Of a stretch of 29,410 bases of DNA, positions 1-10,590 are shown piece after piece. Made by a program: the position numbers and the translations under genes. Under the pieces are notes generated by a model that had not been told where the DNA came from, searched no databases, and saw only the letters and a program-made list of their open reading frames with translations. Each line of letters begins with the position of its first letter. Position 1 is the first letter of the stretch. Source of the DNA: a virus. The stretch spans positions 1 through 29,410 of IMG/VR virus record IMGVR_UViG_3300015171_000088; one strand, written 5' to 3'.

Positions 1-1352
1 TCAGCTAGTAGTCCTTCTAATTTACCCTTAATCAGTAATGCCACATCCTGATGATGGATAAAGATAGTTAATTTTCTATCAGTAGAACCTAGAAATTCCA
101 TTACGGCATCTATGCAATTGTCTACTTTGGATAATCCTGTTAAATGACGCATCCTACCTAGATAGGCTAAAAGATTCATATTATCAGCCATCGAATTACC
201 AGTGAACTCTCCATCATCATATTTCTTTAGAAACTCAGCCATCATATTAGCATAAGCTTCTTCTACTTCTTTTCCTAGATCATGATATGTGTAATTACGA
301 GTGATAACTGGTAGGTCGGGTAATACTTCTTTTCTTTCACGTCTGATTATGAAGTCTTTAGTCTTAGCAGCAAAGTATTCTGGATTCTTAAGTCCTAATC
401 TCTTCATTCCTTCAACACGTACATAATTATTAATAAATCCAATCTCAGTAGGAAATAGTTCAGGATGTAGGATATTGAGGATTGAGAAATACTCCCCAGC
501 ATTATTTTTGATAGGCGTTCCGCTTAATCCTATAACATACTTCATCATAGAACAGATTTTTCTCACAGTCTTTGTCCTACCAGCGTCCGTATTCTTAATA
601 GTTTGCGTCTCATCTAGAATAACTGTTTTAATACCCATCTTGACAAACTTATCCTGAATATTCTCACCTTTCTTCTCTAATCCACCAGTCTTTTTTATAC
701 CAGTTATTTTAGACTCTCTAGCCTTTCTCTCTGCTAGAATATCATATGAGCAAATGTATGCACCGAATCCTTTTACCATCATAACGGGATCATTAATTAT
801 CAGAGATGATTTATTTAGATCAGATAGTTCAGAATCAGCATCCAATTCCTGATTAAAAACCCATTCATTAATTTCATGTCTCCATTGCATTGTTAAGGAT
901 GCTTTAGTTATTACGAGAAAAGGTCCCATCTCAGAATGTAATCTCATAGTTAGCAAAGCCTGAATAGTTTTACCTAATCCCATCTCGTCAGCGATTAATA
1001 CTCTACCATTAGCAGATTCAGTAAACTTTACTCCATCCTTCTGAAACTTATATGGAGTTTTACCAGAAAAGGATGAGATAGAATCTATTGTAGACTCTTT
1101 AGCTTTTGCAACATCCTTAATAATCTCAGAACACCCGCACGTATAACGGCGTAGTGTTACTGATCCCATTTTAATATCTTTATCTTTTGCTGTACGTTTA
1201 GAACATTTAGAACATATCATAGCAAAAGTAGATAAATGTTCTTTCTTATTTTCAGGATGACAATCACATGCACAGTGCGATGGTATAGTCACATCGACAC
1301 AATTGTAATGATCACCTAGAGCGCAATAGCGAGATAGAGTTATTGTTTCCAT
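1..1352 (-). CDS. SNF2-family DNA helicase/translocase with N-terminal Cys/His-rich region (partial, 3' end outside window)
   Basis: Translating the minus strand from the ATG at 1352 gives 450 codons without a stop up to the left edge, so the C-terminus is missing. Superfamily 2 motifs of the SNF2 type are plain: Walker A DEMGLGKT (residues 122-129), motif II DETQ (247-250, where DEAH or DEGH is usual), motif III SGTPIKNN (277-284), the SNF2-typical RRERKEVLPDLP (337-348), and the start of the second RecA domain (FIHHQDVA, about 431-438). Residues 1-75 carry many Cys/His (C10, H15, C18, C28, C30, H32, C47, C50, C72, C74), probably zinc-binding and resembling the N-terminus of the upstream protein. 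A ribosome binding site AGGAAAA lies just before the ATG. Phage SNF2 proteins are ATP-driven DNA translocases acting in replication, recombination or early gene control; which applies here is not visible. It is the last visible gene of the leftward operon. Confidence 0.92.
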   Translation of the reverse strand, partial: METITLSRYCALGDHYNCVDVTIPSHCACDCHPENKKEHLSTFAMICSKCSKRTAKDKDIKMGSVTLRRYTCGCSEIIKDVAKAKESTIDSISSFSGKTPYKFQKDGVKFTESANGRVLIADEMGLGKTIQALLTMRLHSEMGPFLVITKASLTMQWRHEINEWVFNQELDADSELSDLNKSSLIINDPVMMVKGFGAYICSYDILAERKARESKITGIKKTGGLEKKGENIQDKFVKMGIKTVILDETQTIKNTDAGRTKTVRKICSMMKYVIGLSGTPIKNNAGEYFSILNILHPELFPTEIGFINNYVRVEGMKRLGLKNPEYFAAKTKDFIIRRERKEVLPDLPVITRNYTYHDLGKEVEEAYANMMAEFLKKYDDGEFTGNSMADNMNLLAYLGRMRHLTGLSKVDNCIDAVMEFLGSTDRKLTIFIHHQDVALLIKGKLEGLLA

Positions 1353-3495: not shown

Positions 3496-3519
3496 AAAAA
3501 AAAATAGGGAAACTCCCTA
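3496..3519 (-). terminator. strong intrinsic terminator of the leftward gene at 3598-4053
   Basis: Read leftward: TAGGGA (3519-3514), a three-base loop, TCCCTA (3510-3505), then nine T (3504-3496). An outer inverted pair, GTAGACT (3542-3548) and AGTCTAC (3571-3577), lies between this hairpin and the stop codon at 3598. Together with the promoter at 4115-4143 it makes the gene a self-contained transcription unit. Confidence 0.85.
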
Positions 3520-3597
3520 GTGGGAATCTCCCCTATCCTTTGTAGACTTAATTTTTGATTCTATGGGAACAGTCTACTTACTCCCAAAAGGAAAAAA

Positions 3598-4053
3598 CTA
3601 GTCACTTTCGTCCATCAACATCGTGGCAGTTGCAATCGCCTTCGCGCGTGAAAGTTTCGGATTTTGCTTCTGCATCGCATCGGCCAACTTCTCAATCTTG
3701 ATAGCAGGACCGACCAGAGACGTTTCCATCTTGATCCGCTGATTACGCGAGAAAATAAGCTTCAAGGAATCATAGGCAAGTTTCAGGACTCCGGTTAATT
3801 CCGAAAATTCCTTGTCCACCAGTTCGCCTCCATTCTTTTTCGCATACTCATCTAACCATGCCTGGATACCTGATGCCGTAGAAGGAACTAAAACGAAGGA
3901 ATTATAATCCTTAGTTTTTCCTGCAACATCCGGGTCAGCAAATTTTCCTGTAACTTCTAGAAGTTTGAATCCTGGCGTAGCGGAAGGCACGTCGAACAGA
4001 GTTGTGTAAACTTTTTCGTTAGCGGTTGGTGTTGATACTGTCATCTCGCTCAT
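3598..4053 (-). CDS. self-contained moron-like gene, product of unknown function (151 aa)
   Basis: ATG at 4053 is preceded by CCGAGGAGA (4069-4061), a near-ideal ribosome binding site, and by a consensus-type promoter; a strong terminator follows. The product is 151 aa, soluble, with no signal peptide or membrane segment. Its N-terminal half contains KLLEVTGKFADPDVAGKTKD, a middle part looks beta-rich, and the C-terminus ends in a helical segment (LSRAKAIATATMLMDESD) that resembles the end of the Cys/His-rich protein at 1410-2084. The gene uses G+C-ending codons (GCG, TCG, CGC, ATC) far more than its AT-rich neighbours. Isolation between two gene-free regions, its own signals and foreign composition are the marks of a recently acquired cargo gene expressed apart from the lytic programme, by host RNA polymerase. 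I do not recognise the family; an accessory or host-interaction role is inference. Confidence 0.82.
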   Translation of the reverse strand: MSEMTVSTPTANEKVYTTLFDVPSATPGFKLLEVTGKFADPDVAGKTKDYNSFVLVPSTASGIQAWLDEYAKKNGGELVDKEFSELTGVLKLAYDSLKLIFSRNQRIKMETSLVGPAIKIEKLADAMQKQNPKLSRAKAIATATMLMDESD

Positions 4054-4114
4054 ATCGTTTTCTCCTCGGGAAATCTGGCTCGTTAGGTGAGCTACTCCAA
4101 TTGGCTACTCCTAC

Positions 4115-4143
4115 ATCTTACTACATTCTTGAATCGGTGTCAA
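4115..4143 (-). promoter_or_regulatory. sigma70-type promoter for the leftward gene at 3598-4053
   Basis: On the minus strand: -35 TTGACA (4143-4138), 17-nt spacer, -10 TAAGAT (4120-4115), about 60 nt before the start codon. Perfect -35 hexamer and optimal spacing. A GTCAA...TTGAC inverted repeat covers the -35 (about 4139-4155) and could be an operator. Confidence 0.8.
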
Positions 4144-4867
4144 GTACTTTTTTGACTGCCACCAGGTTTCTTTCAGCTTGGCCTACCCAGGGGGGTATCG
4201 AATGAACAGTCTAGAACAAAGTACATGCATAGGCAAGTTTGTAGACAAGCTGAATTTTGAATACTTCTTTGCCTAATAGTTCTTCAGAAAATATCTCTAT
4301 TTCTGGAATCTTTAAAGTTATCACCTCACTTTCGTATACTTCTAGGATTTGACTACTATATCACAGTTAGGGTTTTACTACTACTTCTAGCGTCGTCATA
4401 AGATCATAACAGATTCTCTCTGCCATCTTAACCGCTAAATGGTAAGAATATCCTTTCAGGATTGAAGTTTTATAGTCGAGAGAGTCCAAACATCTAAGTT
4501 TGCTGATATCTCTGTGCGGTGTTTGCCGTCCAAAGTATCTAAGGAAACTGTTGAGTAACTCTCTCGACTATTTAATAAGTATCTCATAATAGTTATTCTA
4601 TGTCAAGAAAATAATACAGAGAATCATCTATGTATTCTCATATAATAACTATCCGACCCCATCCCCCGTATACCCATAATTAATGAGTCTCCTATACGTC
4701 GCGCACAAGGGCAATACTGGTATCACGCCCATATAAATATGTATCGTAATTACTATATCACATAATAGTAGGAATTATGATTCAAATACTTCGTTCATTT
4801 TTTCTTCCCATCTTTTAGTGAACATTTCTTGCTTGCTAACCTTATGAATCTAGGCTAGATAAAAAGC
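4144..4867. other. divergent intergenic region between leftward gene and rightward late operon
   Basis: No convincing gene of normal size. Contents: an inverted pair AGGCAA/TTGCCT (about 4231-4274), the structured element at 4472-4571, a small hairpin ATCCT-TTC-AGGAT (4450-4462), a nested inverted-repeat set (AATAGTTATT 4588-4597 with AATAACTATC 4644-4653, and GAGAAT 4619-4624 with ATTCTC 4634-4639), and the perfect palindrome ATCTAG-G-CTAGAT (4848-4860) immediately upstream of the rightward -35. Two possible tiny frames were noted: 24 codons at 4202-4276, and 13 codons from the ATG at about 4778 behind a TAGGA; neither has other support. Confidence 0.5.
4472..4571. ncRNA. candidate structured RNA or foldback element closed by a 14-bp perfect inverted repeat
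   Basis: ATAGTCGAGAGAGT (4472-4485) is exactly complementary to ACTCTCTCGACTAT (4558-4571), enclosing 72 nt. Inside are a hairpin CAAAC-ATCTAA-GTTTG (4487-4502), a short hairpin CGG...CCG (4517-4528), and a partial direct repeat of the type CCAAA..ATCTAAG (about 4486-4498 and 4530-4543). That is a closing stem with a multibranch-like interior, as in many regulatory or catalytic RNAs. It matches no family I can name: there is no CUGAUGA hammerhead core and no tRNA arm. Strand is undecided because the stem reads both ways. A miniature foldback mobile element is the main alternative, but no clear target duplication flanks it. Confidence 0.55.
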
Positions 4868-4897
4868 TTGACATGGGATAGTGAATCGTGCTAGGCT
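4868..4897 (+). promoter_or_regulatory. candidate promoter of the rightward (late) operon
   Basis: TTGACA at 4868-4873 and, 18 nt on, TAGGCT (4892-4897) preceded by TG at 4889-4890, i.e. a poor -10 rescued by an extended -10. The palindrome at 4848-4860 abuts it upstream. It is the only good -35 hexamer I saw between 4144 and the first rightward gene. The weak -10 may mean that an activator is needed. Confidence 0.5.
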
Positions 4898-4931
4898 TAT
4901 AGAGACGACAGGATCGAAAAGGAGATTTTTT

Positions 4932-5309
4932 ATGAGTTTACTAGGTGAGGAAAAGAATTTAGAGGGCGAAAAAGTTTCTGCTTTAGATGTTTTTCTGGCT
5001 AGTAAAAAGACTTTGGGAGGAACTTTAAATCCTTCGGGTACTTCTGTACCTAATAGTCCTACAGATGTATATACACATCCTCCGAATACTCCATTAACTA
5101 TTGATACTAATTTATCTAAGAATCCTTCTGGAACTTCTGCTCCTAATTCTCCTGTTTCTAGCTCATCTGTAAATCCTCCTCCTTCTCTTGGCGGTTCGGC
5201 TTTTACTTCCTCTTTAGTTGAGAATTCGGAGAGGATTGCTAGGAATAGTGGCTCTGATAGTGGATATGGAGATAATCGTGGAAATAATACTCCCTCTGAC
5301 CTCTACTAA
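4932..5309 (+). CDS. Ser/Pro/Asn-rich low-complexity protein, function unknown
   Basis: The frame is open from a GTG at 4881, but the ATG at 4932 has AAGGAG (4919-4924) at a proper distance and lies downstream of the promoter, so 125 aa is preferred. The product begins MSLLGEEKNLEGEKVSALDV and is otherwise low-complexity, with two near-identical copies of NPSGTSxPNSP and many Ser, Pro and Asn. No membrane segment or enzyme motif. It is the first gene of the rightward operon. Its end overlaps the longest possible form of the next frame, but not the start chosen for that gene. Disorder suggests a linker, scaffold or interaction protein; nothing more can be said. Confidence 0.65.
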   Translation: MSLLGEEKNLEGEKVSALDVFLASKKTLGGTLNPSGTSVPNSPTDVYTHPPNTPLTIDTNLSKNPSGTSAPNSPVSSSSVNPPPSLGGSAFTSSLVENSERIARNSGSDSGYGDNRGNNTPSDLY

Positions 5310-8931: not shown

Positions 8932-10590
8932 ATGCTGACTAATACAGAACAACAATCAGATACAGTTAGAAGATGGAAGCCTAATCTGAAACAGGTTAAG
9001 TTTATGTCTCTTCCGGATACTATCTTTGAGGCTCTGTATGGCGGTGCGGCGGGTGGTGGGAAGACTGAAGTATTACTAATGATGTTTATCGCTAAACAAT
9101 ATCATAAGATTCCGCGAGTCAAAGGTATACTGTTACGTAGAACCTTTCCGGAACTAGAAGGTGAAGTTGTACCTCGTTCGCAGGATTATTATCCGATAAC
9201 TGGTGCAGAGTATGATAAAGCTAAACATATCTGGACTTGGCCTTCTGGAGCTACTTTAAAGTTTGGACATGCGGAGAATGAAGATGATATACGTAAGTAT
9301 GATTCTTCTGAGTTTCAGTATGCAGCATTTGATGAACTTACTTCTTTCACACAGTTCCAGTATAACTATATTGTATCTACCCGTTTACGATCTTCAATTC
9401 CTGGCATAATCCCAATTGCACGCTCTGGTAGTAATCCTGGTAATATCGGGCATGGATGGGTTAGAGATTACTTTGTCGAGCCTTGTAAAGAAGGTGGTAA
9501 AATCCTTGTCAATAAGGTAACGAAGCAGAAAAGAATCTTCATCCCTGCAAAGTTAGAGGATAATACTGATCTAATCAAAACTGATCCTACATATCGTAAT
9601 CGTCTAGAAGGTTTAACTAATGAGGCTGAGCGCCGCGCAAAGTTATATGGTGATTGGTATACATTTACTGGACAGGTATTTAAGTTTAGAAATGAACCTA
9701 TGCCTGATGAGCCTGATAATGCTAGACATGTTATAGAACCTTTTGAGATTCCTAATTGGTGGACTAAGATTAGAGCATTAGATTGGGGACAGGCTGCTAT
9801 GACTTATTGTGTTTGGGCAGCTATTTCTCCTTGGAAGCGGGTATATATCTATCGTGAGTATTCTCCTAAGATCGGTACTCTTATTTCTGACTGGGGTTCT
9901 GATATTTCTAGACTTTCTCAGGGAGAAGTTTACAAAGATTCAGTAATTGATCCCTCTTCTAGGGTTCGTGATAAGAAAGATAACGAGAGCATTCTAAGTC
10001 AAGTTAATACACATACGGGATATAACTGGTCACTAGCAGACAATGATAGGATTTCTGGTAAGACGCTTTGCGAAGATTATCTAAGATGGTGGCAGAAACC
10101 TATTTCCTATGTTCCTCCAGAAGGATATAAAGAAGATACTGCTAATGATATTCTTAGGAAACAAGGAGTATATGCTAGAGATGAGTACATTAAAATGTTT
10201 CTCCCTCAAGCAGAGGAAACTGGTCTACCCAGATTACAGATTTTCAAAACTTGTCCAATACTTATCAAAACTATTCCATTATGTACCTATGATAAAAATA
10301 ATACGGAAGATGTACAAGATTTCGATGGTGATGATCCTTATGATGCTTGGAGATATTTGATTAAGCGTTGTCATCTCTATTTAAGTAGTACAGAGAAAAT
10401 CGCCGCACAGGATGAGGCTAAAGGTCTTGTGATTCAAAAGTTAGAGAAAACTGGAGATATGACTGATTTCTATATGAGTATGGCTAGAATTGATGGAGCT
10501 AAATCTAATATAGCTGCTATGAATGTTCGCGGTAAATATAACTTCTTACCTGTTAGAAAAGTTCATGGAGGATTACGTAGACATGCTTAA
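8932..10590 (+). CDS. terL: terminase large subunit (ATPase/nuclease)
   Basis: 552 aa. ATPase domain: Walker A GGAAGGGKT (37-45), Walker B with catalytic glutamate YAAFDE (130-135), and a coupling segment GSNPGNIGH (166-174). RNase H-like nuclease domain: ALDWGQ (D284), VIDPSS (D340) and the late acidic pair and helix GDDPYDAWRY (466-475). It docks on the portal, pumps DNA into the prohead and cuts the concatemer. The start is ATG at 8932, one base after the preceding stop, without a Shine-Dalgarno. Two heptamer copies lie in the gene, at 9044 within the Walker A codons and at 10402. Length is normal for the family. Function is certain; the packaging type cannot be read from it. Confidence 0.96.
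   Translation: MLTNTEQQSDTVRRWKPNLKQVKFMSLPDTIFEALYGGAAGGGKTEVLLMMFIAKQYHKIPRVKGILLRRTFPELEGEVVPRSQDYYPITGAEYDKAKHIWTWPSGATLKFGHAENEDDIRKYDSSEFQYAAFDELTSFTQFQYNYIVSTRLRSSIPGIIPIARSGSNPGNIGHGWVRDYFVEPCKEGGKILVNKVTKQKRIFIPAKLEDNTDLIKTDPTYRNRLEGLTNEAERRAKLYGDWYTFTGQVFKFRNEPMPDEPDNARHVIEPFEIPNWWTKIRALDWGQAAMTYCVWAAISPWKRVYIYREYSPKIGTLISDWGSDISRLSQGEVYKDSVIDPSSRVRDKKDNESILSQVNTHTGYNWSLADNDRISGKTLCEDYLRWWQKPISYVPPEGYKEDTANDILRKQGVYARDEYIKMFLPQAEETGLPRLQIFKTCPILIKTIPLCTYDKNNTEDVQDFDGDDPYDAWRYLIKRCHLYLSSTEKIAAQDEAKGLVIQKLEKTGDMTDFYMSMARIDGAKSNIAAMNVRGKYNFLPVRKVHGGLRRHA

Follow-up and report, generated by a model that had tools for sequence, protein, structure and literature searches.

The phi29 pRNA is a phage RNA of ~100–170 nt, which has paired 5′ and 3′ ends and comes from an early promoter. 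Lambda OOP is a phage-encoded small RNA, and a 5′-terminal helix is a known means of slowing RNA decay. The anti-sRNAs of EHEC prophages are phage-encoded small RNAs too (PMC4104026). The put RNA of phage HK022 (putL and putR) is a cis-acting antiterminator of ~70 nt, with two consecutive stem-loops and its 5′ end in a duplex (PMC9378689). By its fold right behind an early promoter, nascent putL RNA suppresses both pausing and termination (PMC9378689).

We analyzed a 29,410-base virus record of IMG/VR, here called the window, which contains a 100-nt element at 4472–4571. Like put, the element would be an RNA from the early region of a phage and would closely follow a σ70 promoter, predicted here with +1 at 4571, and a predicted terminator lies downstream of it at 3533–3506. 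On the other hand, put has two stem-loops in ~70 nt, whereas the element is longer and has a 15-pair stem and a three-way junction, as compared by size and fold. Termination downstream is suppressed by put without a phage protein, and a put-like action of the element is possible by this analogy.

The element resembles phi29 pRNA in its paired 5′ and 3′ ends and similar length, but it has no Rfam pRNA match. The phage encodes a large terminase of the classical kind (Terminase_6N type, PF03237; PHROG terminase) at 8932–10590 and likely a small terminase as well, so that a pRNA-type motor is not expected. The large terminase speaks against a phi29-type pRNA serving a gp16-type packaging ATPase. 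With lambda OOP and the EHEC anti-sRNAs, the element would share the character of a short noncoding RNA with its own predicted promoter in a phage regulatory region, but it differs from them in having no intrinsic terminator, identified target or homologue. A discrete 3′ end, as an intrinsic terminator would give to a free sRNA, was not found for the element. We place it among phage leaders or small RNAs of known kinds, and not in a new category.

A closed, folded element in a gene-free stretch

The element is housed in a gene-free stretch (4054–4932), flanked by a 151-aa ORF on the minus strand (3598–4053) and by a long rightward late operon on the plus strand. The 151-aa ORF has no match in PHROGs or Pfam, and is followed on its strand by an intrinsic terminator (3506–3533) with a 12-bp stem and a T run. 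Past the terminator, a 229-aa ORF and an SNF2-type helicase gene (3–1352, minus strand), which is cut by the window's left end, form the next leftward gene cluster.

A preliminary description had reported a perfect 14-bp inverted repeat around a 72-nt interior, and this proved exact, as the arms at 4472–4485 (ATAGTCGAGAGAGT) and 4558–4571 (ACTCTCTCGACTAT) are 100% complementary. The gene-free setting described there is correct, the GTGCGGT word of the interior is located at 4514–4520, and the partial internal repeat is real. On the plus strand the two copies of this direct repeat read GTCCAAACATCTAAG (4484–4498) and GTCCAAAGTATCTAAG (4528–4543), and on the minus strand CTTAGATGTTTGGAC and CTTAGATACTTTGGAC, respectively, with no further close copy within the window. 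The window has no other perfect inverted repeat of at least 14 bp with a loop of up to 150 nt, and the number expected is 0.05 per dinucleotide-shuffled window.

As RNA, 4465–4580 folds with −40.7 kcal/mol on the plus strand (z = −5.96) and −40.2 kcal/mol on the minus strand (z = −7.24), and on either strand none of 200 shuffles was equally stable. The exact 100 nt give z = −6.2 on the plus and −7.1 on the minus strand (1000 shuffles). When the 72-nt interior is folded alone, z is −2.35 on the plus strand (15 of 1000 shuffles as good) and −3.35 on the minus strand (5 of 1000). With the arms fixed and the interior shuffled, z is −2.2 and −2.8, respectively. The excess over shuffles comes mostly from the arms, and the interior also beats chance.

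On the minus strand, where the element runs from 4571 to 4472, the closing stem has 15 pairs, 14 of them Watson-Crick between the 5′ arm AUAGUCGAGAGAGU (4558–4571) and the 3′ arm ACUCUCUCGACUAU (4472–4485), with a U-G pair as the fifteenth. The stem encloses a three-way junction that holds two inner hairpins, in agreement with the interior hairpins, at least two, noticed before. They are found at 4505–4539 (GAUACUUUG-GA-CGG-caaaca-CCG-CA-CAGAGAUAUC) and 4487–4502 (CAAAC-UUAGAU-GUUUG). A rod-like alternative fold lies within ~0.5 kcal/mol of the three-way junction. After the 3′ arm comes AAAACUUC, which is not a U run. There is no terminator-like site just downstream on the minus strand, nor any on this strand between 4472 and 3533.

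No convincing coding frame runs through the element, as codon scores of its ORFs do not exceed background and no family match was found. A minus-strand frame at 4489–4213 with two stops reads LDSLDYKTSILKGYSYHLAVKMAERICYDLMTTLEVVVKP*L*YSSQILEVYESEVITLKIPEIEIFSEELLGKEVFKIQLVYKLAYACTLF, and is possibly a decayed gene; its codon score is at background, and a family match is absent.

A predicted promoter start at the end of the stem

A σ70-type promoter is predicted on the minus strand at 4607–4578, with CTTGACA, a 17-nt spacer, GATACT and a TG one base before the −10 box. When seven bases are counted from the −10 box of TTGACA-17-GATACT (4606–4578), the predicted start is 4571, the outermost base of the stem, so that, given a correct promoter call, transcription would begin with the bases of the 5′ arm. 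The −10 box has only four of six consensus matches. The probability that a promoter of this quality ends by chance no more than one base from either arm, and on the right strand, is ~0.0015, as estimated with the window's 15 promoter sites that score at least 10/12; the coincidence was tested only after it had been noticed. Computation alone shows the stem, its fold and the match between stem end and predicted start. In the clade, a score as high as that of this promoter is reached at only 0.12% of gene-free positions. Among the TTGACA promoters examined in the clade, a 14-bp 5′-terminal stem occurs solely at 4607, the next best having 8 bp.

Three of the window's CTTGACA boxes are in the gene-free stretch. 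Besides the one at 4607, another on the minus strand at 4144 belongs to a second predicted promoter (4115–4144; CTTGACA, 17 nt, TAAGAT), whose +1 would be 4108, 55 nt before the ATG of the 151-aa ORF. This ORF is downstream of both minus-strand promoters. The third box (4867–4873, plus strand) precedes the late operon, and was absent from the promoter scan because no good −10 box was scored. The plus-strand operon has this CTTGACA box of its own downstream of the element, which therefore probably lies outside the late leader. The element's position upstream of the late operon, as first described, stands.

In 49.5 kb of the relatives' gene-free DNA, CTTGACA occurs in 43 copies vs 1–6 copies for five anagram controls. 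A −10-like box of at least four matches accompanies 24 of 39 instances examined, and 17 of these have the 17-nt spacing. Judged by such counts, this phage group uses CTTGACA as a genuine promoter word. Most of the related phages are metagenome contigs, and these phages appear to rely on CTTGACA promoters of the host type.

A 25-nt module TAATAANTATCTCAWAATAGTTATT overlaps the −10 region and spacer of the 4607–4578 promoter (4573–4597, minus strand), and is found with 92% identity at 2498–2522, that is, in both gene-free regions. Both copies have an extended −10 sequence TGAGATAMT on the minus strand, and a shorter relative is present at 4756–4769. They are possibly promoters of a co-regulated type. 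The second gene-free region also has clusters of TTCTAGAA-type palindromic repeats at 2287–2339 and 2840–2913, in which AATGTTCTAGAAAT occurs several times.

Searches for homologues and the gene-free DNA of relatives

That the element fits no known RNA family was borne out with Rfam 15, as no covariance model exceeded its gathering threshold anywhere in the window. A permissive search (E up to 10) returned only a chance miRNA match at 4588–4652, and ARAGORN found no tRNA or tmRNA. With blastn of the element against phage and plasmid collections, chance words or nothing were obtained. The pattern GAGAGAGTCCAAAC occurs at 96 places in viral contigs, and at none of them is the second arm in register. 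Relatives were gathered through TerL and SNF2 alignments; scans with TerL, MCP and portal as single proteins yielded none, and a search of genome contigs gave one distant Acidobacteria MAG locus. A single-sequence covariance model run on 62 loci (743 kb, mostly of related phages) found the window itself only. Thus, of the earlier proposal of a candidate new structured RNA, the structured RNA is supported by the fold and the minus-strand promoter, but a new RNA family is not, with no homologue in the 62 loci. In the near-identical contig pairs L206/L207 and L203/L204, the two differing sites per pair are too few for covariation. Dispersed copies, the sign of a mobile foldback element according to the preliminary description, were looked for in the window, phage and plasmid records, viral contigs and the 62 loci, and none was found.

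The relatives' gene-free regions contain long-stem elements of ~60–145 nt more commonly than shuffles do (combined p = 4e-5), with p = 0.005 for each of L220, L232 and L282. Upstream of TerL, closed elements of 84–143 nt occur in L220 (4662–4804), L232 (2328–2427), L282 (4064–4147) and L274 (485–618). They were rejected as homologues, as their sequences and inner folds are unrelated to the window element. The ends of the relatives' long-stem elements are off promoters, except in one weak case, L262. Possibly these elements are analogues; alternatively, palindromes may just be tolerated in this region.

Other words recur in gene-free DNA. Among the TerL/SNF2 relatives L208–L285, ATGGGACCC (and GGGTCCCATA) has 23 copies in 18 loci, with 0.3 expected, and is a conserved motif, perhaps an operator. 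It is not among the enriched words common to the relatives and the window. TTTAGAATCA / TGATTCTAAA occurs in 12 copies vs 0.15 expected in 8 loci (L107, L266 and others); L266 has several copies, and the window has a divergent copy at ~2818–2838. The gene-free positions 199–410 of L246, among the closest relatives by MCP and portal, contain in succession a TTGACT site resembling a promoter, a small ORF of 40 aa rich in arginine (MKQAFAVFRAAVCIRRAYRK...) and a strong hairpin.

Readings of the element

The element is real, non-random and structured, and it is an orphan. It reads best as a structured RNA, for which the predicted promoter start at the stem and the slightly better folding favor the minus strand. 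Its beginning at that predicted start makes a genuine structured RNA or leader of the phage probable. The element is most likely a minus-strand RNA coupled to the promoter, and its function we infer.

We give a probability of roughly 0.45 to the reading that a leftward phage transcript has the element as its 5′ end, where it would act as a structured leader. A host σ70-type RNA polymerase would start at the 4607–4578 promoter on the minus strand, placing the RNA 5′ end at or adjoining 4571. The first 15 nt would pair with nt 86–100, closing the three-way junction with its two hairpins. The RNA would probably continue into the 151-aa gene, so that a ~1.1-kb transcript with the element at its 5′ end would overlap a shorter one from the proximal promoter. 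The locked 5′ end might shield the RNA from 5′-end-dependent decay. The fold might also, or instead, act on the elongating polymerase in a put-like manner, allowing it to pass the terminator at 3533–3506 towards the 229-aa and SNF2 genes, while transcripts from the proximal promoter (4144–4115) would not pass it. These two weaker steps, stabilization and antitermination, we regard as versions of one leader hypothesis, inseparable here. Antitermination or 5′-end protection is what we infer, and nothing in the fold links it to antitermination specifically. Against the leader, the coupling of promoter and stem is unrepeated in other phages, bar the weak L262 case, and the element has no homologue in the relatives.

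The same promoter start and the compact fold with both ends paired would also suit a free sRNA of ~100 nt, which would be released by processing or Rho and act by base pairing in trans or as a protein-binding or decoy RNA. The separate promoter of the 151-aa gene, 55 nt upstream of its ATG, would make the distal one dispensable for that gene. Yet AAAACUUC rather than a U run follows the 3′ arm, and the element has just a few, scattered 10-mers of complementarity with the late mRNAs of the window. As no terminator precedes the 151-aa gene, a structured leader is favored over a free sRNA, which we consider unlikely but worth keeping in view. A DNA-level element, namely an operator, cruciform or replication structure in the early/late divergent region with the arms or direct repeat as protein-binding sites, appears doubtful to a further degree. 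A perfect Watson-Crick stem serves equally as DNA, and the divergent regulatory setting, the internal 15/16-nt direct repeat, the adjoining module found again at 2498–2522 and the richness of the relatives' gene-free DNA in long-stem elements would all fit. A stem end that coincides with a promoter start on one strand, with better folding on that strand, is unexpected for DNA.

That the searches found no relative would suit a foldback or mobile-repeat relic, or a functionless chance palindrome, and the sequence-unrelated long-stem elements elsewhere in the clade suggest that palindromes come and go. Such an origin is nevertheless improbable, given the 0.05 expected per shuffled window, the structured interior, the absence of a second copy in the window and the lack of any target-site duplication seen beside the arms. 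At still longer odds, we consider a new phage RNA device in which the first nucleotide of the leftward RNA is already in the 15-pair helix, the polymerase from the distal promoter passes the early terminator without a phage protein, and sister phages have sequence-unrelated equivalents.

As an orphan phage RNA the element is credible; as a new family it is not established. If it is merely a stabilizing leader or a chance palindrome, it would be ordinary. If it acts like put, it would add a natural case in which an RNA acts on transcription directly. In the early/late divergent region, a structured RNA that begins where a promoter starts transcription would give a concrete handle on the early-to-late switch.
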